IMG/VR virus record: IMGVR_UViG_3300031980_000006
Location: 1-22,816 of that record
Length of the DNA: 22,816 nt
Source of the DNA: a virus
Reading direction: 5' to 3' (one strand)
Under the pieces are notes generated by a model. The model saw only the letters and a list, made by a program, of their open reading frames with translations. It was not told where the DNA came from and did not search any database. Of this stretch, positions 2-22,816 are shown in pieces. How positions within the stretch are numbered: the first letter of the stretch is position 1; each line of letters opens with the position of its first letter. The translations under genes and the position numbers were made by a program.

Positions 2-181
2 CATAATCCACGTCTTTTCGTACCGTTCTCAGGGACGGGGTCGGAGGTTATCGGCGCGGCGCTTGCCGGTTGGCAGTCCATTGACGCAGTCGAGATAGAC
101 TCAAGTTACGTCTCTATAGCGAAAGAACGCCTATCTTTTTGGTTAGGGATGCCTATTCAACTGGAGCTGTTCTACGAATGA
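2..181 (+). CDS. DNA methyltransferase, C-terminal end only (N4/N6 amino-methyltransferase type)
   Basis: The 5' end lies outside the window and 59 residues remain. They contain PFSGTGSEVIGAAL followed by AVEIDSSYVSIAKERL, which is methyltransferase motif I (the S-adenosylmethionine-binding loop, usually DPFxGSGTT) and the following acidic strand (usually GxExxxxYxxxAxxRL). In the beta class of DNA amino-methyltransferases (N6_N4_Mtase family) these motifs lie at the C-terminus after the DPPY motif and the target-recognition domain, and the protein stops soon after, as seen here. The likely role is modification of phage DNA to evade host restriction, or regulation; the target cannot be read. 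The stop TGA overlaps the next start (ATGA at 178-181), so the two genes are probably translationally coupled. Confidence 0.8.
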   Translation, partial: HNPRLFVPFSGTGSEVIGAALAGWQSIDAVEIDSSYVSIAKERLSFWLGMPIQLELFYE

Positions 182-1059
182 GCGACAATCCGATCACGCC
201 TAACGCAACGCTTGTTACACCGCCTCCGCTCACCCGCTCACAATGGCTTGATTGTGAGGACAAAGCGCGGAGCGCAGTGATCGCCTCTATACCTAAGCCT
301 GAAAAGGCGCAATTCGAAGTCGAGAATTTCGCCGCTTACCCGCGTTGGCTGACCCTAGCCTTGACAATCGGGTTACTTATCGTTGCCGCCGGAGCGTTGT
401 ATGTGAGCGCGGGCAAGCAACTCGCGGCGGGCGATATCGTGTTAAAATCCGTGCTAACCCACACGGATCGCGTGAACGAGTTCTGGGTATCAACGGGTCT
501 TATCGTCCTTGTCGTGATGGGCGAGATTGGCGCGTTGACTTTTGGGCTTAGCGCGGGCTTGTTAGCCCAAACGCGGACGGCTAAGCGCGTATTCCGCGCT
601 TTCATGGTGATGAGCGCGGCGATCGCCTTGCTTGCCAACATATCCATGACGGCGTCTTACCCTCAAAACGAGGTGATCGTGTTTCAATGGTTCATCACGA
701 TCCTAGCGCCGTCGCTTGTGTTAGGAGTTGGCTTCGTTTTCGAAAACTTGCTCATGCAAGAGCTTGAAAAGCGGGCGGCGCGCATCAAAGCGTTCAACGA
801 TGCTGTTCAGTTTTATCACGCCGTGTTGCGCGACCCTAAGACCGCGCTGCCTGAGCGCTATCAAAACGAGCTTGTGTACGCCGTCGGCGAGGCGTTGCGC
901 GACAATTGCAAGACGGCGGACGGCAAGAAAGGCGCGCTTTACAAGCGGTATCTAGAGCAGATTGAAGCCGATCCGCGCTTTGAATACCAATGCATAGCAG
1001 CGGAATTCGATCGCCACATGGTCTCGTTTAAGGATTTTATGCGGGCGCGCCCTATTTGA
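178..1059 (+). CDS. Four-helix membrane protein of unknown function
   Basis: This is a 293-residue protein when started at ATG 178, which overlaps the methyltransferase stop by four bases. An in-frame TTG at 139 would lie inside the methyltransferase and is less likely. After a hydrophilic, proline-rich N-terminus there are four hydrophobic segments at about residues 57-79, 102-130, 141-160 and 168-189. A charged soluble tail of about 100 residues rich in Arg, Lys, Asp and Glu follows (LMQELEKRAARIKAF and on). The arrangement suggests an integral inner-membrane protein with a cytoplasmic C-terminal domain. I recognise no family. The position between a methyltransferase and a DNA-binding protein gives no clear role. 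It is too large and too hydrophilic at the C-terminus for an ordinary holin. Membrane anchoring of a phage process or superinfection exclusion are guesses only. Confidence 0.8.
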   Translation: MSDNPITPNATLVTPPPLTRSQWLDCEDKARSAVIASIPKPEKAQFEVENFAAYPRWLTLALTIGLLIVAAGALYVSAGKQLAAGDIVLKSVLTHTDRVNEFWVSTGLIVLVVMGEIGALTFGLSAGLLAQTRTAKRVFRAFMVMSAAIALLANISMTASYPQNEVIVFQWFITILAPSLVLGVGFVFENLLMQELEKRAARIKAFNDAVQFYHAVLRDPKTALPERYQNELVYAVGEALRDNCKTADGKKGALYKRYLEQIEADPRFEYQCIAAEFDRHMVSFKDFMRARPI

Positions 1060-4855: not shown

Positions 4856-5179
4856 TTAGCTTTGGCTATCCTCCGGGATTTCCCCCGTCTCTAGAATACG
4901 CTTCAATACGCCCGCAATGTAGGCAACGACCTGCTCGGCGGCGTAGTTGAACTCGTCACGATAATGCTCTAAGATCGCCTTGCTACCCCGAATTCGAAGC
5001 GCGTCCGGCGAAATGCGGTGCTTGTCGATCGCCAAATCAATGAAAGCATCGTACTTCTCATCAATGATTGACTTGACCGATCTAGAGACGCCTAAGTCGT
5101 GCATGAGAGTAGAGGTGGTCACCGAAACCAACAGACGACGCTCTTCATCGCTTAGCTGCTCGAATTTACGCTTGCTCAT
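4856..5179 (-). CDS. Small helical protein of unknown function, the only leftward gene
   Basis: The product has 107 residues starting at the minus-strand ATG whose first base is 5179. A strong AGGAGG lies eight bases before this ATG. An ATG two codons earlier is only two bases from the AGGAGG and is less likely. The sequence is hydrophilic and probably helical (KFEQLSDEERRLLVSV, then KSIIDEKYDAFIDLAIDKH), without cysteines or membrane segments. I recognise no domain. It is transcribed against all other genes, convergent with the terminase gene, and its upstream side is the 680-bp control region. That position is common for phage regulators, but the sequence itself has no clear helix-turn-helix. 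A dyad AGGCTAACGCCT lies 27 bases upstream of the start. Confidence 0.7.
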   Translation of the reverse strand: MSKRKFEQLSDEERRLLVSVTTSTLMHDLGVSRSVKSIIDEKYDAFIDLAIDKHRISPDALRIRGSKAILEHYRDEFNYAAEQVVAYIAGVLKRILETGEIPEDSQS

Positions 5180-5258
5180 AAGCATACCCTCCTACACACA
5201 AAATTAGGCTAACGCCTCCAATCGAGACATTTGCTGAAAACGCGATTTTTGAGGCTTT

Positions 5259-5404: not shown

Positions 5405-5581
5405 TCAATACAGCCCGATTAGAACAGTTGAGCGCGACAGTCAACGCTAAGCGTGAGCATTGCGATAACCCGCTCAAGCGCTGCCGATCGCCGGCGGGCG
5501 CGATTGGCGGGACTAGCGAAGCCTATCCCCGCTAAGGCGCGTAAGGGCGTTGGCAATTTAGGAGGGAAGCGATAGGCGAGG

Positions 5582-5629
5582 TAATTAGCTAATTAAGGGG
5601 GGTTGACCGAATTTAGGGTATTATATAAC
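5582..5629 (+). promoter_or_regulatory. Promoter-like site with upstream 14-bp palindrome
   Basis: TTGACC (5603-5608) and TATAAC (5624-5629) are separated by 15 bp, shorter than the usual 16-18. A perfect palindrome TAATTAGCTAATTA (5582-5595) lies directly upstream and could be an operator or an AT-rich UP-like element. It would drive the gene at 5862 with a leader of more than 200 bases that contains the large inverted repeat. Confidence 0.35.
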
Positions 5630-5681
5630 TTAGCAGGTTTTGGCGATAGCCCAAAAATGCCGATCAGAGCTAGGGCGGCGG

Positions 5682-5747
5682 ATTTTCAATTTCACTGCAA
5701 ACTCACCATTAAATATTTAATGATGGCTTTGTAGTGAAATTGAAAAT
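5682..5747. repeat. 66-bp imperfect inverted repeat with AT-rich palindromic centre
   Basis: The arms are 33 bp each, centred between 5714 and 5715. The outer 15 bp (ATTTTCAATTTCACT and its complement) match perfectly, then one mismatch, then CAAA, then a partly mismatched stretch, and the centre is the perfect 14-bp palindrome ATTAAATATTTAAT (5708-5721). As DNA it could extrude a cruciform; as RNA it forms a long hairpin without a U-tract, so it is not a simple terminator. Each arm holds TGAAATTGAAA (right arm 5735-5745, complement 5684-5694). The same 11-mer occurs in the palindrome array at 1250-1260 and 1292-1302. This makes it a candidate second binding locus. Confidence 0.85.
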
Positions 5748-5861
5748 GCGTTGGCTGCTGCCTCCTCTGCTTGTCGTTTTCTTGTCCGGCGGCTTTGGTT
5801 GAGTTACTAGGCTGCTCTAGCGTTCGGCAGCGCTGCTAAGTTGCTTTAGAGGAGATAGCGT

Positions 5862-6706: not shown

Positions 6707-9175
6707 ATGGCGAAACGGGCGTCTATCCGCCGCAAATTGGCGCGGCGTTTTCAGGTAAGCCAACAGTTCAGTAGGGCGTGGTATGTCGGCGACGCGACCC
6801 GCTCCGATAAATTGCCGCCCGCTGAGATGAGCGTCGGCAATGCAGGTCTGTTCAATCGCGATGAACAGGCGGCGATCTACGCCGCTTCAATAACGGCGTG
6901 GGCTTGTGTGAAGTTCAGAGCGGACGCTATCTCTAACATTGATTTGGTCGCGCAAAGCGACCTTGATTCGCAATTAGAGTACTCCCCCGCCCGCGATTTC
7001 GTTGAGAATTCGCGAGAGCTGCTATGGTTGCTATCGGCATCTCTTTTGGTTTTTGGCGGCGCTTTCCTGTATAAGGTTCGCAATGAATACGGCTTGCCGA
7101 CGGCGGTTACTTTCATATCGCCGATGGACATAACGGTTCAGAGCGATTTAGTGACAGGCGAGCCGTCTCGGTTTCTGCTAACGCATTCTTTTCAGGAAAT
7201 CCCGCAACGCGACTTGATTTTCCTACGCTTGCCAACGCCGCTAGGCACGCGGTATGGCAACGCTCCTTCCGATATTATCCGTTATCGGGCGGTAGCGGAG
7301 CGCAACTTAGGCGAATGGTCACGCCAATTCTTTGCTAACTCCGCGCGCCCGGACGGGCTGCTCATCTTTGAAGGCATGATTACGCCTGAACAGCTTGAGC
7401 GGCAAAGGGAGGCTTGGCAACAAATGCGAAGCCCAAGCAATGCGTGGAAAACGTTTGTCGCTGGGTCAACACAAGGCGGCAAATGGACATGGCAACCTAT
7501 CACACCGCCTCCGACCGATTTGGCGATGCGGGATTTCTTGGATCAAATTCGTTTTGATATCTGCGCCGCCTATCAAGTGCATCCTACCCTGTTAGGCGGT
7601 AGCCCGTCCGACCCGCTCGGCGCTTCAAACACTTACAACGATGTTTGGTTGAACCACATCAGGCACGTCGCCTTGCCGATGCTACGCATGATTTTGGAGG
7701 GCGTGAATCGGCAATGGTTACAACGCGATTTCTCCGATATCGGTTATGAGCTGCGCGTTGAAATTGACCTTCACAAACTGAACCGTCTTATTTTGGCGAC
7801 GCCAGAGCGCTTTAGTATGGCTTCCGCCGCCTTTGGTAGCGGCATCATGACTTTGGACGAAGCGCGCCAATTCATTGGTTTGCAGCCTTCGCCGCTGGGC
7901 TTGCAAACGGACGCCGCTCGCGTCTTGCCGTTCTATCAAGGCGGCGTCTTGACCCTGAACGAGGCGCGCGCCGCGCTCGGCTTAGATAGGTTGCCAACAG
8001 GCGATGTTGTATTGGTCAACGGCGTCCCGACTCCCGTCGTTGAGATCGGCAAGCCTGTTCAGCAGCCGTTGTTGGCGCCCCCGCCTGTTCCAACACAATT
8101 GCCTTTGATTACCGAATCGCCCGCTCAGGATGATGAGGATTCGGCGGGTGAAGAGCGCGCGCCGCTAAGCGCCGAACAAATCGCCGAGCTGCGCAGTTGG
8201 CATTCGGCGGTTTTAAGCCATGCTATCCAACAGGGGGACTTTAATGCTCCGTTCAAACCCGTCAAATTGCCTCAAAAATTGGCGAATTGGATAGCCGAAC
8301 AGCTGCGAGGCTACTGGAATCCCGACTTGATTTTTGAGCGGGCTGAAAGGCTTGAAATTGAAGCGCCTATTGAGGCCGCGGACGGTAGCGCTTTTTGGCG
8401 GCAGTTGGAAAGCGATCCTTCGCTAAACTCGCTTTTCGCCGACTTGTTTGTTGAATCACAGCGGCTTAGCGAGGATGATTTGGCTCAACTCGACGCGCTT
8501 GTGAGCGACACGCCTGCATCGGAATTGGAAAGCGCGCTGTTGGCATGGTTCAGCGAATGGTTAGAGCGCCATGCGCCTGATTATGAGCAGCGTTTTGCAA
8601 AGCATTACGCGGGCGCGTTTGTGAGCGGGGTCAAGGCGGCTGATGAGCAGTTGCGAAGCGCGGTCGCCAAACGCGATTTGACTTTCACAATTGATTGGAA
8701 TCTAGTCGCGGACGAGGCGGTCGCTTACGCGCTTAATCAATCGGCGCGGCTAGTCAAGCAAATCAACCAAACGACTTTGCTGCAATTACAACAAGCGATT
8801 GCAGACGCGGTTAAAGAGGACGCTTCAATAGCGCGGTTGCGCGACGCCATTGCGGGGGTGTTTGCAGTACAGGGATACCCGCTTTCACAACAATTGCTCA
8901 ATCGCGCGCAGTTGATCGCGGAAACCGAGCTGACTCGCGTTTACACGGAAGGCGCTTTTGAGCGTTACAAGACCGCCGGCGTGAAACGCGCAATTTGGCA
9001 GACCGCTCAGGACAAGGACGTTTGCTCAACTTGCCGCTCCCGACATAACGCGGTAAGCGATTTTCAGCGCGGGTGGCGATCGGCGTTAGACGGTCAATAC
9101 TTGACGCCGCCCGCTCATCCACGCTGCCGTTGTTTCACCATTCCTGTTATAGAGGATGTTACCAATGGCGTTTGA
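6707..9175 (+). CDS. Portal protein fused to a Mu gpF/SPP1 gp7-like head morphogenesis domain
   Basis: The product has 822 residues. GAGGAG lies six bases before ATG 6707, so I reject an in-frame TTG at 6701 that directly abuts it. The N-terminal half, to about residue 400, is a phage portal: AIYAASITAWACVKFRADAI, FGGAFLYKVRN, GLLIFEGMITPEQLE, CAAYQVHPTLLGGSPSDPLG and a helix ending in MLRMILEGVNRQWLQ. A Pro-rich then acidic linker follows (about 440-490). The last 110 residues (AQLIAETELTRVYTEGAFERY, then DVCSTCRSRH and PPAHPRCRC) are the minor head protein domain found as separate genes gpF in Mu and gp7 in SPP1, including its typical Cys pairs. The portal is the DNA channel at one head vertex and the gp7-type domain is packed with it. 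The fusion ties their ratio to 1:1. Confidence 0.93.
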   Translation: MAKRASIRRKLARRFQVSQQFSRAWYVGDATRSDKLPPAEMSVGNAGLFNRDEQAAIYAASITAWACVKFRADAISNIDLVAQSDLDSQLEYSPARDFVENSRELLWLLSASLLVFGGAFLYKVRNEYGLPTAVTFISPMDITVQSDLVTGEPSRFLLTHSFQEIPQRDLIFLRLPTPLGTRYGNAPSDIIRYRAVAERNLGEWSRQFFANSARPDGLLIFEGMITPEQLERQREAWQQMRSPSNAWKTFVAGSTQGGKWTWQPITPPPTDLAMRDFLDQIRFDICAAYQVHPTLLGGSPSDPLGASNTYNDVWLNHIRHVALPMLRMILEGVNRQWLQRDFSDIGYELRVEIDLHKLNRLILATPERFSMASAAFGSGIMTLDEARQFIGLQPSPLGLQTDAARVLPFYQGGVLTLNEARAALGLDRLPTGDVVLVNGVPTPVVEIGKPVQQPLLAPPPVPTQLPLITESPAQDDEDSAGEERAPLSAEQIAELRSWHSAVLSHAIQQGDFNAPFKPVKLPQKLANWIAEQLRGYWNPDLIFERAERLEIEAPIEAADGSAFWRQLESDPSLNSLFADLFVESQRLSEDDLAQLDALVSDTPASELESALLAWFSEWLERHAPDYEQRFAKHYAGAFVSGVKAADEQLRSAVAKRDLTFTIDWNLVADEAVAYALNQSARLVKQINQTTLLQLQQAIADAVKEDASIARLRDAIAGVFAVQGYPLSQQLLNRAQLIAETELTRVYTEGAFERYKTAGVKRAIWQTAQDKDVCSTCRSRHNAVSDFQRGWRSALDGQYLTPPAHPRCRCFTIPVIEDVTNGV

Positions 9176-9701
9176 TGATTTGGAGCGGTTCACAGCCTTC
9201 ATTTCACGGCGCGTTTCGCAACAGGCGCTCGAAGCCGCCTTATTGCAGGCGGCGCGCAAAACAGGCGTCGCGATGGAAAGCCTTGTCTTGCCAATTCCGC
9301 CTCCGCCTAATCGCCCGTTAGCGCCTGTTTATACGCTCGACGGTAAGCCCAGCAAATTCAAGACTGAAAAGCAACGGCGTTACGTGCTATGGGCAATACG
9401 GACGGGCGCGATTCGTGTACCCTATCGCCGAACCAATTCGCTGTACAGGAGCTTGACAAGCAAGGTTGAATTGACAGGTGGTAGAGTCTACATCACAGTC
9501 GGGTCGAACAAGTCTTACGCGCCGTATGTGATAGGCTTCCCTAGACAAGCGAGCTTGGTCTATCCACGAGGCTCGAATCAGCAGAGCTTCTATCATCGCC
9601 AAACAGGGCATAAGAGCTTACCTGAGCAGATTAACCTTCAATTGCCGCGCCTAATGCGCGTTTTCCTAAACGAGTTGCAACAAAACTTTTCTAATCCGTA
9701 A
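9165..9701 (+). CDS. Putative tail-completion or minor head protein (gpG/gp10-like position)
   Basis: The product has 178 residues from ATG 9165. AGAGG lies nine bases upstream, and an ATG at 9156 directly touches it. The gene overlaps the portal-gpF fusion by 11 bases. The C-terminal half contains PYRRTNSLYRSLTSKVEL, VGSNKSYAPYVIG and FYHRQTGHKSL. This follows the pattern 'R-T-x-x-L-x-x-S ... V-G-S/N ... Y-A-x-x-x-x-G ... H' found in HK97 gp10-like and Mu gpG-like tail-completion proteins. In Mu, gpG also follows gpF, which supports the comparison. The expected role is at the head-tail joint or the top of the tail. The similarity is in pattern only, so other neck proteins are possible. Confidence 0.6.
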   Translation: MAFDDLERFTAFISRRVSQQALEAALLQAARKTGVAMESLVLPIPPPPNRPLAPVYTLDGKPSKFKTEKQRRYVLWAIRTGAIRVPYRRTNSLYRSLTSKVELTGGRVYITVGSNKSYAPYVIGFPRQASLVYPRGSNQQSFYHRQTGHKSLPEQINLQLPRLMRVFLNELQQNFSNP

Positions 9702-9733: not shown

Positions 9734-9761
9734 TTGACAACGGCTTGAGGCGTGCTATCCT
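9734..9761 (+). promoter_or_regulatory. Sigma-70-type promoter of the single-gene unit
   Basis: A perfect -35 TTGACA (9734-9739) and a -10 TATCCT (9756-9761) are separated by 16 bp, in the 105-bp gap between the tail-completion-like gene and the small gene at 9816. It looks like a host housekeeping-type promoter and is the best one in the window. Confidence 0.65.
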
Positions 9762-9765
9762 TTGC

Positions 9766-9792
9766 ATAGCTAACGCTTCTATAGCTAACGCT
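9766..9792. promoter_or_regulatory. Doubled 12-bp repeat just after the promoter, likely operator
   Basis: ATAGCTAACGCT occurs at 9766-9777 and again at 9781-9792, a 15-bp period. Each copy contains the dyad AGC-TAAC-GCT. The first copy begins four bases after the -10 box, so it covers the start site, where a bound repressor would block initiation. A related dyad AGGC-TAAC-GCCT lies upstream of the leftward gene at 5206-5217. Confidence 0.6.
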
Positions 9793-9815
9793 AGTAACTG
9801 TGAAGGATGTACGAA

Positions 9816-10205
9816 ATGATTGATCTCAACCGCTTCGGCTTGTATTCCGCGCTGTACGCATTTGATTTCAAAACACACGCCCTCCTCACCTTTAACGGTG
9901 AAGAGGTTACGGGGCTTGACCAGCCCATTCGTAAGACGTGGAATGCTCAACCGACCGCCTCATTTCTAGCGACAGTCAAACCGCTTGTCTGTTGGTCGCC
10001 GACGCCTGAGGAGGCGGCGTCGCCTTTTATCTTCACCCGCGACGGTGTTTGGATTTACCGCTTTTCGCGGGTTGACTACACGCTTAGCAAGAGAAAAGGG
10101 CTTAAGGGCGCTTTCGGGGATTCCAAGTTTGTAGACCCCGCTTCGCTTGTTAATTTAGCCGCCCGTTGGTACACAACTGTTCTTGAGGCGTGGAAAGCAT
10201 CGTAA
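9816..10205 (+). CDS. Small protein of unknown function in its own transcription unit (moron candidate)
   Basis: The product has 129 residues from ATG 9816, with GAAGGA eight bases upstream. An ATG at 9807 overlaps that ribosome binding site and is less likely. The sequence is soluble and rich in aromatic residues (seven or more Trp and Tyr, for example RDGVWIYRFSRVDYTL and NLAARWYTTVLEAWKAS), with no signal peptide, membrane segment or motif I know. It is flanked by its own promoter and operator-like repeat (9734-9792) and a strong intrinsic terminator (10240-10263), in the middle of the head genes. This is the signature of a moron, a gene expressed independently of the lytic programme that often protects or changes the host. 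Function is unknown; an anti-defence or superinfection role is inference from layout only. Confidence 0.8.
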   Translation: MIDLNRFGLYSALYAFDFKTHALLTFNGEEVTGLDQPIRKTWNAQPTASFLATVKPLVCWSPTPEEAASPFIFTRDGVWIYRFSRVDYTLSKRKGLKGAFGDSKFVDPASLVNLAARWYTTVLEAWKAS

Positions 10206-10239
10206 GCCGTTGACCTGGACGGGTTTGATTCGACCTCAC

Positions 10240-10263
10240 AAGACCGCTTCGGCGGTCTTTTTT
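10240..10263 (+). terminator. Intrinsic terminator with UUCG tetraloop
   Basis: The perfect 8-bp stem AAGACCGC / GCGGTCTT closes a TTCG loop and continues into a six-base T-run (10258-10263). This is the best terminator in the window. It ends the small gene at 9816-10205 and separates it from the capsid gene. Confidence 0.92.
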
Positions 10264-10308
10264 CTCCTTAACAAGCGCCTTGCTAAGTTCCCTATAGAGG
10301 TGAGCGTT

Positions 10309-12447
10309 ATGAGTTGCAAGTATGCTTTTGTCCGCTCAATAGACGGCGATCGTATTCAAGGCTATTTGGCGCTCTGGGGAACGCCCGATCAGCCCGATTG
10401 TTTCGGGACGTGGTTCGACCGCGACGAGCCGCCTGACTTCGGCTTGATTGACGGCGCGCCAATCCGCCTGATGTATGAGCATGGGCAAGACCCTGAAGTC
10501 GGCAAGACGGTAATCGGCAAGGTTGTGCGCACATGGCATGACGATATCGGCGTCGCCTTTGAAGCGGTCTTGTTTTCAGATAATCCTTATTATCGGAAGA
10601 TACGGGATGAAATCAAGCTCGGCTTGTTAGGCGTGAGCAGTGCGTCCGCTGAACATCTTGCCGAGTTTGATGAGGATGGGCGGTTCAGGACATGGTTGCT
10701 ATCTGAGGTTAGCCTTACAAAACGACCGTGCGAACCGCGCATGAAAGTATTGCATGTCGAGTTAACGCGTGATGCGATTCCTGTCTACCGCGCTAAGTTG
10801 ATTGAAGACGATACAACGAGGAGAGATGAAATGGCTACTACACGGTCTTTTGAGGAAATGGGCATTCCGCCCGATGTTGACGCGACTCAGCTCCTGTCTT
10901 CATTGATTGAGCGGGACGGTGTTGAGAGCGTCGTCGCGCTTGTGAAGGCTATGGTGGGCGTTGATTCTATGCCTAGCAACATGGCTGAGATTGCAGAATC
11001 CGTCGAGCAATCGGCGGAGGAGGACGCATCTGTTAGCGACGCGGACGACGCGCCTGAGGATGATATGGCTGAGGAGGACGAGGACGAAACCGAAACCGCT
11101 AAACCCGCCCGCCCGCGCCAAAAGGTCGTCGCCGATCCGAAAGCGGTCGCTAAAGAGATGCTGCGCATGGTTATGCAGCAACCAAAGGAGCGTAAGCCCG
11201 TGATTACTGACGTCCGCGATCGTTTTTATGACGCTCACACGCCCGGTCAATTGGCTTTCGGATATCAGACAGTGCAGCATCTGGTCAAGGCGGGGCGCTT
11301 GGAAAGCTCAGCGCTGCGCGGCGACTTTTTGGCTCGTTTGGCGGCTAAGACCCGTTCTGAGGTGGCTCGCGGCGCATACGCGCGGCTCATGCCGCCCTAC
11401 CGCGCCAATGAAGTCGTGCATACGGGGCAAGCGGGATTCGGCGCGGAATGGATGCAGACCTTGCCCGGCACGGAGCTGTGGGAAAAGGTCTATAGCGAAG
11501 CTCGCCTTTTCAACGCGCTTGTCGAGCGCGGGCTGAACTATGGTGAAATCCCGCGCGGTCACAATCAAGAGACTATTTTGGTCGAGGGCGCTAGTCCGAC
11601 TTTCTATGTCGCGGGTGAGGTCACTGACGTGGCTTCTAACAGCGCTATCCCGACTCCTACATTCGCGACTTCAAAGTTCGCCACAGCTAAGCGCACGCTG
11701 AGCATCAAGAAGCTCGGCGCGGCTGTTGTCTTGTCACGCGAGATGCAAGAAGACACGATCTTTGACGTCCTTACCCAGACCTATACGCAATTGCAGCGTA
11801 AGGCGGCTGAGGAGATCGAGTTCGTCTTGATTAACGGAGATGAGGCGACTGCGGCTAACACGAACATCAATCTGATCGACGGCACGCCGAGCGCAGCCCC
11901 GACGCGCCCGTCTTACCTGCTCTTCAACGGCATTTTGAAGCTGCCGTTGGTCACGAATACGGCGCTCGCCTATGATGCAGGTAACACGCTGACGCCTGCC
12001 GTGTTCCTTGAGCTGCTCAAGCGCTTGCCCGCCGCCGATCAAATCCCTAGCGACCGCCTGTTGTATGTGATGGACATGGACACGGCGATCAAGACGATGT
12101 CGCTTGCCGAAGTGCAGACGCGCGATGTTTTCAGTTTGGCGACTCTTGAGAACGGCATGTTGCCCTTCCTGTACAAGATCGGCGTCTTGCCGAGCGCTTT
12201 CATGTTCAAAGGACGGGCTTCAGACGGTAAGCGGTCGGGTACTGACTCGAATAACAATCGCGGTCGTATCGCGCTAGTCCGCGCCGATCGCTGGGCTTTC
12301 CGTTACAAGCGCCAAATTGAGATCGAGACGGATCGCAACGTTTACACCGATAGCACGACCGTCGTGTGCTTCCTCCGTTGCGGCTTCACTAACTTTGCAG
12401 ACACGACGGGCGCGACGGCAGCCTACAATGTGAGCGTGTCGATCTAA
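10309..12447 (+). CDS. Prohead protease fused to HK97-fold major capsid protein
   Basis: The product has 712 residues from ATG 10309, with AGAGGTGA about six bases upstream. An in-frame TTG at 10183 lies before the terminator and is rejected. Residues 1-160 form an S78-type prohead protease: His 58 in RLMYEHGQDPEVGKTVIGKV, a serine at 110-113 in GVSSAS, and Glu 133 in LSEVSLTKRP, the expected catalytic triad. An acidic segment (about 235-270) resembles the HK97 delta domain used as internal scaffold. The remainder is the capsid fold, with VLSREMQEDTIFDVLTQTY, EEIEFVLINGDEA and VRADRWAFRYKRQIEIETDRN near the C-terminus. The protease should cleave the scaffold and itself during head maturation. 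A strong internal start at 10831 probably yields capsid protein without protease. Confidence 0.93.
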   Translation: MSCKYAFVRSIDGDRIQGYLALWGTPDQPDCFGTWFDRDEPPDFGLIDGAPIRLMYEHGQDPEVGKTVIGKVVRTWHDDIGVAFEAVLFSDNPYYRKIRDEIKLGLLGVSSASAEHLAEFDEDGRFRTWLLSEVSLTKRPCEPRMKVLHVELTRDAIPVYRAKLIEDDTTRRDEMATTRSFEEMGIPPDVDATQLLSSLIERDGVESVVALVKAMVGVDSMPSNMAEIAESVEQSAEEDASVSDADDAPEDDMAEEDEDETETAKPARPRQKVVADPKAVAKEMLRMVMQQPKERKPVITDVRDRFYDAHTPGQLAFGYQTVQHLVKAGRLESSALRGDFLARLAAKTRSEVARGAYARLMPPYRANEVVHTGQAGFGAEWMQTLPGTELWEKVYSEARLFNALVERGLNYGEIPRGHNQETILVEGASPTFYVAGEVTDVASNSAIPTPTFATSKFATAKRTLSIKKLGAAVVLSREMQEDTIFDVLTQTYTQLQRKAAEEIEFVLINGDEATAANTNINLIDGTPSAAPTRPSYLLFNGILKLPLVTNTALAYDAGNTLTPAVFLELLKRLPAADQIPSDRLLYVMDMDTAIKTMSLAEVQTRDVFSLATLENGMLPFLYKIGVLPSAFMFKGRASDGKRSGTDSNNNRGRIALVRADRWAFRYKRQIEIETDRNVYTDSTTVVCFLRCGFTNFADTTGATAAYNVSVSI
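10818..10833 (+). promoter_or_regulatory. Internal ribosome binding site inside the protease-capsid gene
   Basis: GAGGAGAG (10818-10825) precedes an in-frame ATG at 10831 by an ideal distance. It sits exactly at the boundary between the protease domain and the scaffold-capsid part, which argues that it is used. Confidence 0.75.
10831..12447 (+). CDS. Major capsid protein from internal start (nested in the fusion gene)
   Basis: This nested product has 538 residues and begins MATTRSFEEMGIPPD. It has its own near-perfect ribosome binding site and lacks the protease domain. It contains the acidic delta-like segment (about residues 60-95) and the whole HK97 capsid fold. A head needs hundreds of capsid subunits but few proteases, so separate initiation would supply the excess. 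Nested head genes sharing a C-terminus are known in lambda (C and Nu3), where the short product is the scaffold. Here the short product would be the capsid itself, with the full-length fusion as a minor component. Use of this start is inferred from sequence, not shown. Confidence 0.75.
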   Translation: MATTRSFEEMGIPPDVDATQLLSSLIERDGVESVVALVKAMVGVDSMPSNMAEIAESVEQSAEEDASVSDADDAPEDDMAEEDEDETETAKPARPRQKVVADPKAVAKEMLRMVMQQPKERKPVITDVRDRFYDAHTPGQLAFGYQTVQHLVKAGRLESSALRGDFLARLAAKTRSEVARGAYARLMPPYRANEVVHTGQAGFGAEWMQTLPGTELWEKVYSEARLFNALVERGLNYGEIPRGHNQETILVEGASPTFYVAGEVTDVASNSAIPTPTFATSKFATAKRTLSIKKLGAAVVLSREMQEDTIFDVLTQTYTQLQRKAAEEIEFVLINGDEATAANTNINLIDGTPSAAPTRPSYLLFNGILKLPLVTNTALAYDAGNTLTPAVFLELLKRLPAADQIPSDRLLYVMDMDTAIKTMSLAEVQTRDVFSLATLENGMLPFLYKIGVLPSAFMFKGRASDGKRSGTDSNNNRGRIALVRADRWAFRYKRQIEIETDRNVYTDSTTVVCFLRCGFTNFADTTGATAAYNVSVSI

Positions 12448-12457
12448 GGGGGCTACC

Positions 12458-12805
12458 ATGCTGCTGAACATTAAGCAAGGGCAAATCGGGAGCGTGTTGC
12501 GTAAGGTTGTCAGTGCCTCAGGCGCTGACAGCCTAAGCCTCTCTGAAGGCGGCGTTTTGAGATTGACGGGCTCGACCGCTTATGACGTGACTTTGCGTCG
12601 CCCGCGTGTTGGAGCGGAGCTAATCGTGGTCAATCGCGGTAGCGCGGCAATCACGGTAACTTTTCCAAGCGGTTTCACGTGGGACGGCACTAATCGCCGC
12701 GCTAGTTTGCCTGCTAACGCTGTAATCTATGCAGTCGCGGAATCCGATGCTCGGATGATCGTCATCTCGACTGTCGGCGCGATTACCTACTCGAATCCGT
12801 CATGA
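12458..12805 (+). CDS. Small beta-rich virion protein, possible head decoration protein
   Basis: The product has 115 residues from ATG 12458, with AAGGGGG upstream, 10 bases after the capsid stop. It is nearly all alternating strand and turn (LRLTGSTAYDVTLRRPRVG, then AITVTFPSGFTW and AVIYAVAESDARMIVIS), with few charges and no cysteine. Position directly after the capsid gene and the small size fit a decoration or head-fibre protein on the capsid surface. I do not recognise the exact family. Its stop overlaps the next start (ATGA). Confidence 0.65.
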   Translation: MLLNIKQGQIGSVLRKVVSASGADSLSLSEGGVLRLTGSTAYDVTLRRPRVGAELIVVNRGSAAITVTFPSGFTWDGTNRRASLPANAVIYAVAESDARMIVISTVGAITYSNPS

Positions 12806-20929: not shown

Positions 20930-22816
20930 AGCCTACTAGCGCGCTCACAACAGCGCAACGCGACTCGCTCAAGACGGCTAGGGCGACCGCTTGGTTTTAT
21001 GCGCGCCCAGATACGGTCGTCGCCACTCTTACCGTGACAAGCGCCCTGAACACGCTAGAGGGGCGCGTCAATGTGAGCGGATCGCTCTCAAACGTGACAG
21101 CCGACATGACGGCTAAGGTCAAGCGCGGATCGAACCTTGTCGGTTACTACCGAATCCGCAAAGTGGGCGGCTCTGAACTCTACTTAGGCGCGGATGTAAA
21201 TGACAAGGGCTTGTTTCAATTCGGGCAAGCGCTGCCACCAATCGCCGCTAACGACACGATTGAAGTCTTAAACCGCTACGATTTGACGGCAAAAATCCCG
21301 CGCATTGATACGGGCGCGTCCGTCATTTATGAGGACTACGATATCGCCTATAGCGACCAAAACACGACGCCTGCACCTTACGGGCGCATTTGGATTCGCG
21401 AGGCGGCAAGCGGCGCTTGGAGTACGCATTACGGAGGCTTCACAAGCGGCTCGACAATAGACCTTGACATTCGCGTCGAGGCGTACTCTTTTGTGAGCGG
21501 CGCTTACAGCTTCAACTTCACGTTTCCATCATCGTGGGTTGTGCTATCCTCAAACACGACCGCGCTTGTCGCCGAGCGGCAAGTCCGCGTGCCAATCGGC
21601 GCGTTCAGCTTCACTTGCACCATCACACAAAACGCCAAAACGCGCACTTTGACGCGCTACGTCGTGGTTGACGACCGCGCCAATCCTACGCTTTTCAAGG
21701 AGCTGCTTGATTTCAACGCCGAATTCACAACAGAAGGCGTCCGCTTATCGGGACGCCTGCGCGCTCAAGACGCGCAGACCTATCTCAGCGGTATCTCTCA
21801 AGGCGCGTTCAGCCTGATCGCTCTCGACACTGAACAAAATGCCGCATTTTCGAGGGTTTACGCGGGATTTTTTGACGGGGGTAGTTATACCTCACGAGAG
21901 GCGGAAAGGGCGGCTCAAATCGCCATTTTTGACGTATCCGAAACGCTCAGGCGAGTCTATTGCGCCTCTCAACTTTTCGAGCGCAAATCAACAGTTGATA
22001 CATGGCAAAAATTGCCTCAGGCGCTCAGTCATCCCGCTTTTGCCGTCTATTGGCTTTTGGATTGGCGCGTCGCCAATTACCATCGCCTGTTCAATTTTGA
22101 AGTACACGGAACGGCAGCGGATTACAAGGCGATTGCATTGAAGTCGGATCGCGGCTCGGTTTGGCAGGCGATTCAAGCCATGACAGGTCGCTTGCCGACT
22201 GCGATTTTATGCGCAAGCGCGGACGGGCTTCGCATTGATGTACGCCCTGAACTGTTGAGCGCAACAGCGCGCAACGCAATCATCACACGCCACACGATCA
22301 CGGAAGATGATGTTTCAAGCCTGAACATATCGGTAGCGCAACGCGCGCGTTACCGGCGCGTTAGGCTTGCTGCCTTTTTGCCCGTCGCGGCGGATGATGA
22401 AAAGCCGATTCCGATTAGATCGGGCGCGACGGCGATCAACGGCGAGCAAGAGCAGGACATAGACGGCTTGTTAGCGTTCAGTCAAGCCGAGCTGAATCGC
22501 GTTGCGGGCGACACGCTTGCCGCGCTCAACGCGCCGTATGAGCGGATTCAATATGAGCTGATCGGCGCGCTCGGCATGGCTTTCATGCCGTATCACCAAC
22601 AATTCGTAGGCAACAACATCGCGCAAGCCTATCACGAGCTTTTCAGCGCGGCTTTCACGCAACGCTGCATTCCGGTAAGCCTCAGCTTGACTGTAGAGGC
22701 AGGCGGCGTTGCGCGGACGAGCTTGACTGTCAAGCCCGAAACGGACGGCGCGGACGGCGTCACCTTGCCGATACCTATTGAGGGCGAACACAGCATCGTC
22801 GAGCCGTTTGAATTAC
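20926..22816 (+). CDS. Large distal tail protein, baseplate hub-like, 3' end outside the window
   Basis: The frame opens at ATG 20926, overlapping the preceding stop, and stays open for 630 codons to the window end. The N-terminal 250 residues are Thr/Ser/Val-rich beta structure, perhaps Ig-like (LTVTSALNTLEGRVNVSGS, RTLTRYVVVDDRANPTL). From about residue 330 it has DVSETLRRVYCASQLFER, GSVWQAIQAMTGRLPTAIL, ADGLRIDVRPELLS and ITEDDVSSLNISVAQRARY. This order (a helix before a small domain, 'D-G-x-x-x-I-x-P', then a line with S-L-N-I-S) resembles tail hub and tip proteins of the gp27/Tal group. I infer a hub or tip protein for host attachment. The missing C-terminus could hold a lysin or fibre domain. 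Confidence 0.75.
   Translation, partial: MKPTSALTTAQRDSLKTARATAWFYARPDTVVATLTVTSALNTLEGRVNVSGSLSNVTADMTAKVKRGSNLVGYYRIRKVGGSELYLGADVNDKGLFQFGQALPPIAANDTIEVLNRYDLTAKIPRIDTGASVIYEDYDIAYSDQNTTPAPYGRIWIREAASGAWSTHYGGFTSGSTIDLDIRVEAYSFVSGAYSFNFTFPSSWVVLSSNTTALVAERQVRVPIGAFSFTCTITQNAKTRTLTRYVVVDDRANPTLFKELLDFNAEFTTEGVRLSGRLRAQDAQTYLSGISQGAFSLIALDTEQNAAFSRVYAGFFDGGSYTSREAERAAQIAIFDVSETLRRVYCASQLFERKSTVDTWQKLPQALSHPAFAVYWLLDWRVANYHRLFNFEVHGTAADYKAIALKSDRGSVWQAIQAMTGRLPTAILCASADGLRIDVRPELLSATARNAIITRHTITEDDVSSLNISVAQRARYRRVRLAAFLPVAADDEKPIPIRSGATAINGEQEQDIDGLLAFSQAELNRVAGDTLAALNAPYERIQYELIGALGMAFMPYHQQFVGNNIAQAYHELFSAAFTQRCIPVSLSLTVEAGGVARTSLTVKPETDGADGVTLPIPIEGEHSIVEPFEL

Follow-up and report, generated by a model that had tools for sequence, protein, structure and literature searches.

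The window, the whole 22,816-base stretch of DNA analyzed here (IMG/VR virus record IMGVR_UViG_3300031980_000006, positions 1–22,816), belongs to a phage family that is represented solely by metagenome records. Its gene order begins with two sigma70-region-2-like proteins, encoded by tandem and mutually related genes (1573–2277 and 2261–2998) whose weak matches to sigma70 region 2 fall below the Pfam cut-off. These are followed by the small and large terminase, a portal fused to a Mu-F-like domain, an HK97-gp10-like gene (20.6 bits against a Pfam cut-off of 21.4), a one-gene unit, a protease–capsid fusion, and connector and tail genes. A phosphoesterase and a thyX-looking gene complete the series (the thyX and tail labels are putative and were given without a family search).

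The one-gene unit at positions 9734–10263 is a complete transcription unit flanked by the HK97-gp10-like gene and the protease–capsid fusion. The first-pass annotation had described a gene among the head genes that is served by a separate promoter and terminator, and the promoter, the 129-codon gene, the terminator and both flanks are all borne out (Table 1). These features support the view that the segment is an autonomous transcription unit, as predicted from its signals, within late head genes.

Table 1. Features of the one-gene unit and its flanks (window coordinates)
Feature	Position	Strand	Basis or remark
HK97-gp10-like gene (upstream flank)	9156..9701	+	E 9e-4, slightly below Pfam cut-off
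Extended −10 sigma70-type promoter	9734..9761	+	Strict scan; kept in 4/4 genomes
Doubled 12-bp repeat ATAGCTAACGCT	9766..9792	+	Copies at 9766–9777 and 9781–9792, exact
Shine-Dalgarno-like GAAGGA	9802..9807	+	8 nt ahead of ATG 9816
Accessory gene, 129 aa, exchangeable alleles, matching no described family	9816..10205	+	ATG 9816, stop 10205
Intrinsic terminator, UUCG tetraloop	10240..10263	+	Fold and conservation
GCTAAGTT-n-AGAGG element ahead of capsid gene	10282..10300	+	Conserved
Head maturation protease fused to major capsid protein (downstream flank)	10309..12447	+	PHROGs

Relatives of the window were located through the capsid gene (n=3). They are IMGVR_UViG_3300002920_000041 (G1; 43,140 bp), 3300031878_000002 (G2; 43,370 bp; its loci include L003), and a fragment of 4,295 bp (L004). 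G1 is very likely complete because it carries a 77-bp terminal repeat. These three are the only relatives found, and all are close to the window phage. A homologous gene of 126–130 codons occupies the corresponding place in each of them, and the expectation that the unit would be missing from related phages therefore fails. When distant relatives were sought with terminase, portal and capsid profiles, terminase-level similarity of 20–37% and short portal or connector pieces were recovered, but no common head cluster. A terminase-based search for the host among GTDB genomes gave no match, and no tRNA was found around the unit.

The promoter consists of TTGACA (9734–9739), a 16-bp spacer and TATCCT (9756–9761), with TGC ahead of the −10 box. 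In a strict scan, which tolerates at most one mismatch in TTGACA and demands TGN plus TANNNT, this site is the single match in the window, compared with an average of 0.07 in Markov-shuffled sequence. The promoter is also kept in 3/3 relatives, and its earlier description as a good promoter is well founded.

The ATAGCTAACGCT pair overlaps the predicted transcription start and then extends past it. There are four places in the window where 12-mers recur within about 40 nt, versus 0.15 in shuffles. The exact doubling, described at first as operator-like, is real; however, it is private to the window genome, and the operator role does not hold up. The relatives have at most one copy, and an operator is disfavored because their leaders carry other repeats instead. 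We rejected the operator reading, since genomes that lack the doubling nevertheless keep the promoter and the gene. The same observation weighs on the hypothesis that the gene encodes a transcription regulator or timing factor that lies inside the late operon, controls it, and uses the repeats as its own operator. Such a role would fit the doubled repeat over the predicted start site, the position of the gene ahead of the capsid gene, and a protein that is basic in 2/4 relatives. Nevertheless, the repeat is missing where promoter and gene are retained and no DNA-binding domain was detected in the 129-residue protein, and we consider this explanation very improbable. An Rfam search of the leader and terminator returned sub-threshold matches only.

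The terminator comprises AAGACCGC-UUCG-GCGGUCUU and a T run, with a predicted folding energy of −13.1 kcal/mol (z −4.5). Terminator-like sites are not in excess over shuffles in a simple pattern scan alone, and therefore the case rests on the fold and on conservation in all relatives, which keep the UUCG terminator and have a second terminator just upstream of it. On these grounds the label of textbook UUCG terminator is justified. Between the terminator and the capsid gene lies the GCTAAGTT-n-AGAGG element. It also occurs at 5835–5852, ahead of gene 5862, and at the corresponding places in G1 and G2. The best GCTAAGTT matches in the window and both 43-kb relatives are found only before the capsid gene and gene 5862. 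The element is a candidate for a promoter at which late transcription restarts or for a leader of late transcripts, and the two phage sigma-like genes could serve late promoters of this type.

The accessory gene encodes a small protein of ∼14.6 kDa. An alternative in-frame ATG at 9807 is possible, and the starts in the relatives correspond to 9816. Its pI of 7.8–9.2 ranges from neutral to basic. We propose that the protein is soluble; its composition has no membrane-type hydrophobicity. Searches of Pfam, PHROGs, NCBIfam, PADLOC and the PDB gave no match, in agreement with the first-pass description of one 129-residue gene of unknown type. Likewise, no relation to a described counter-defense family was detectable in sources that cover counter-defense to a limited extent. 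PADLOC lists mainly defense proteins, so a missing match there says little. AlphaFold was run twice, each time with a different first sequence, and both models were poor (pLDDT 49 and 52); a Foldseek comparison of these with the PDB and BFVD yielded nothing at E ≤ 0.001. The gene was found only in the window and the three IMG/VR records; no homolog was found in the phage collection, nor among GTDB genomes at the sensitivity of a pattern scan.

The divergence of the accessory gene sets it apart from its neighbors. Its protein is 51–53% identical between the window and the 43-kb relatives, versus 83–91% for the products of the two flanking genes. Most other window genes are 72–99% identical to those of the relatives, with low-identity exceptions at 4856–5185 on the minus strand (52–54%) and at 1056–1580 (54–62%). 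Synonymous sites in the accessory gene are saturated (pS 0.73–0.78, compared with 0.22–0.49 in the two flanking genes), and dS is ∼2.6–3.0 or not computable, compared with 0.26–0.79. The dN/dS ratio is 0.14–0.19. Saturated synonymous sites together with a low dN/dS indicate old alleles that are under purifying selection and are moved by recombination. In view of this saturation and a dN/dS of ∼0.15, we rejected rapid positive selection on the protein as a cause of the divergence.

The boundaries of the divergent segment lie close to the transcription signals. Nucleotide identity is ∼0.5 from about 9789 to 10213 and mostly 0.75–1.0 on either side, declining at about 9744–9789 and recovering at about 10261. 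Similarly, homology between G1 and G2 ends 2 bp past the −10 box (G1 position 25750) and restarts at 26200, adjoining the terminator. These patterns indicate that the interior of the unit has been exchanged as a cassette of old alleles. When the G2 and L004 alleles are compared over successive alignment columns, the first 120/120 match, identity drops to 67% across the next 60, and it then returns to 30/30. As judged from this alignment, the 60-bp foreign patch at codons 41–60 of the L004 allele shows that exchange has also occurred inside the gene. The GC content of the window gene is 52.6% (51.8% and 56.2% in the flanking genes); in the relatives the gene has 46.2% and 49.4%, compared with 53.2% and 53.6% genome-wide.

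The first-pass annotation held that a conserved virion protein in all relatives would count against its reading of the unit. The gene is indeed fixed in place in all relatives, but its divergence is quite unlike that of virion genes. That the gene encodes a component of the virion or of head assembly, for example a decoration protein or head-completion factor, and has an extra promoter only incidentally, would be consistent with a location between head genes, with its retention under purifying selection in every relative, and with a size typical of decoration proteins. However, divergence of this kind is absent from the flanking virion genes, and a strong host-type promoter and a terminator separate the gene from the late transcript. 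Moreover, the location and length of the 115-aa gene right behind the capsid gene (12458–12805) would suit a decoration protein more naturally. A virion role is therefore unlikely, and the data suggest an exchangeable gene that acts on the host and is not a particle component.

Similar behavior is seen elsewhere in the complete relative. A strict promoter scan of G1 finds four sites, three of which have a perfect TTGACA (10872+, 25721+ and 1057−). Homology between G1 and G2 stops at 10898 and 25750, at most 2 bp from the ends of the 10872+ and 25721+ promoters, and restarts 29 bp upstream of the third promoter. The top 6 of 40 comparable G1 ORFs by synonymous divergence all lie within the units behind these three promoters; four belong to the leftward operon that 1057 heads, one is a helicase-like gene downstream of 10872, and one is the accessory gene. 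That divergence goes with promoter class was spotted post hoc in one genome pair, and for that reason we treat it as a well-supported hypothesis and not as a rule. A bolder extension, which we regard as doubtful, is that strong host-type promoters are exchange points and that the unit represents a new early counter-defense or host-take-over family within the late cluster. If this were true, each such promoter would head a unit swapped with distant alleles, whereas the remaining genome would stay collinear and similar.

Other genes and repeats of these genomes also deserve description. The G1 leftward operon behind 1057 (−) and an operon in G2 (42137–43367 and 175–726, minus strand) consist of orphan genes with the same promoter class and very high synonymous divergence, and these genes are candidates for host-directed functions. 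Kinship between them and the accessory gene, noticed by eye from an ANG-KP-R motif, was rejected because profile-comparison probabilities were <1%. The minus-strand gene 4856–5185, which follows the terminase, has the second highest synonymous divergence against G2 (pS 0.60) and perhaps is exchanged as well. A 66-bp near-perfect palindrome (TTTTCAATTTCACTACAAAG...CTTTGTAGTGAAATTGAAAA) is present once in the window (5682–5747) and twice in each 43-kb relative (5595–5659 and 21668–21733 in G1; 5443–5510 and 21422–21490 in G2), in non-coding gaps adjoining minus-strand genes. Gene 1056–1580 encodes repeated EIS-rich units and varies in length between relatives; within it, 12-mers with GAAATTTC recur at a spacing of 21 bp.

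The original sense of the term moron is a complete transcription unit added to a phage genome (as cited in PMC6316719). By sequence evidence, the unit has both its own promoter and its own terminator. However, no collinear phage without the unit was found, and the insertion that the strict sense calls for is not seen. A recent insertion is unsupported because all three relatives carry the unit in the matching place, and the insertion event itself is out of view because the relatives are only three and close. Neither the window nor the two 43-kb relatives, of which G1 is complete as judged from its terminal repeat, yielded an integrase, a resolvase or an HTH_3 repressor, and a prophage setting is thus not supported. 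Therefore, the moron reading of the first-pass annotation survives in part: the autonomous unit, the conserved promoter and terminator, and the exchanged interior stand, whereas absence in relatives, the operator and the prophage setting do not. In the wide sense used for SPP1, a moron is an added gene or unit that is unique to, or limited to, few genomes (PMC6316719), and the distribution of the unit is restricted in this way. On its sequence features, the unit works like a moron, though it falls outside the strict definition.

The closest parallel is found in SPP1, a virulent 44-kb siphophage of Bacillus subtilis. A segment ‘bracketed between transcriptional signals’, with three moron genes, 8–10, interrupts the late region of SPP1 and separates the portal and packaging modules from the capsid module (PMC6316719). 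In both phages, genes annotated without a function are bracketed by transcriptional signals in this position; the SPP1 segment has three genes and the replication origin oriR, whereas the window unit has one gene. Lambdoid-type morons are also complete units with their own promoter and terminator among late genes. Unlike them, the window unit is present in all relatives, lysogeny genes are undetected, and alleles are exchanged rather than gained and lost. The early accessory operons that virulent phages express with host sigma70 resemble the unit in promoter class and high divergence, as seen for the units at G1 1057 (−) and G2 796 (−), but the unit lies inside the late head cluster and not in an early region.

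The explanation that we favor, with modest confidence, is that the unit carries an exchangeable accessory gene, transcribed autonomously and probably early, with a host-directed role, and not a virion part. Computation shows the unit itself, its retention at one place, the exchange of alleles and the action of purifying selection, whereas we infer the timing of expression and the role. A lineage in which lysogeny genes are undetected keeps a single-gene cassette at a fixed site among its late head genes. The cassette is most likely transcribed from the extended −10 promoter by the host RNA polymerase and its housekeeping sigma factor, probably beginning once phage DNA enters the cell and independently of the late program. 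The terminator would shield the capsid gene from the cassette transcript, and capsid transcription might restart at the conserved GCTAAGTT element or reach it by read-through. Related phages swap old alleles through recombination at the conserved promoter and terminator as well as within the gene.

The role of the protein would most likely be early and host-directed, in host take-over, exclusion or counter-defense. A host-directed role is likelier than a virion role because the gene belongs to a class that is exchanged and driven by host-type promoters. That every known relative has the gene would equally fit a required function. The narrower proposal that the protein acts in counter-defense or superinfection exclusion, and varies through an arms race with the host, draws on the allele swapping and the intragenic foreign patch, the early-type promoter, and a promoter class and divergence common to the leftward-operon orphan genes. 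On the other hand, there is no match in PADLOC, which counts for little, or in other families; the sequence hints at no target; the pI is unlike that of an acidic DNA mimic; and dN/dS is low. We judge this more specific role to be conceivable but not probable. An anti-defense function as such is possible.

These findings suggest a sequence-only route to host-interaction genes in phages without an identified host, whereby a gene is selected if it lies behind a host-type promoter and its synonymous sites are saturated while those of its neighbors are not. Should additional genomes bear out the association of promoter class with allele exchange, this would mean that whole transcription units, and not just genes, are exchanged in lytic phages, and it would mark both the orphan family and the leftward-operon genes as counter-defense candidates.
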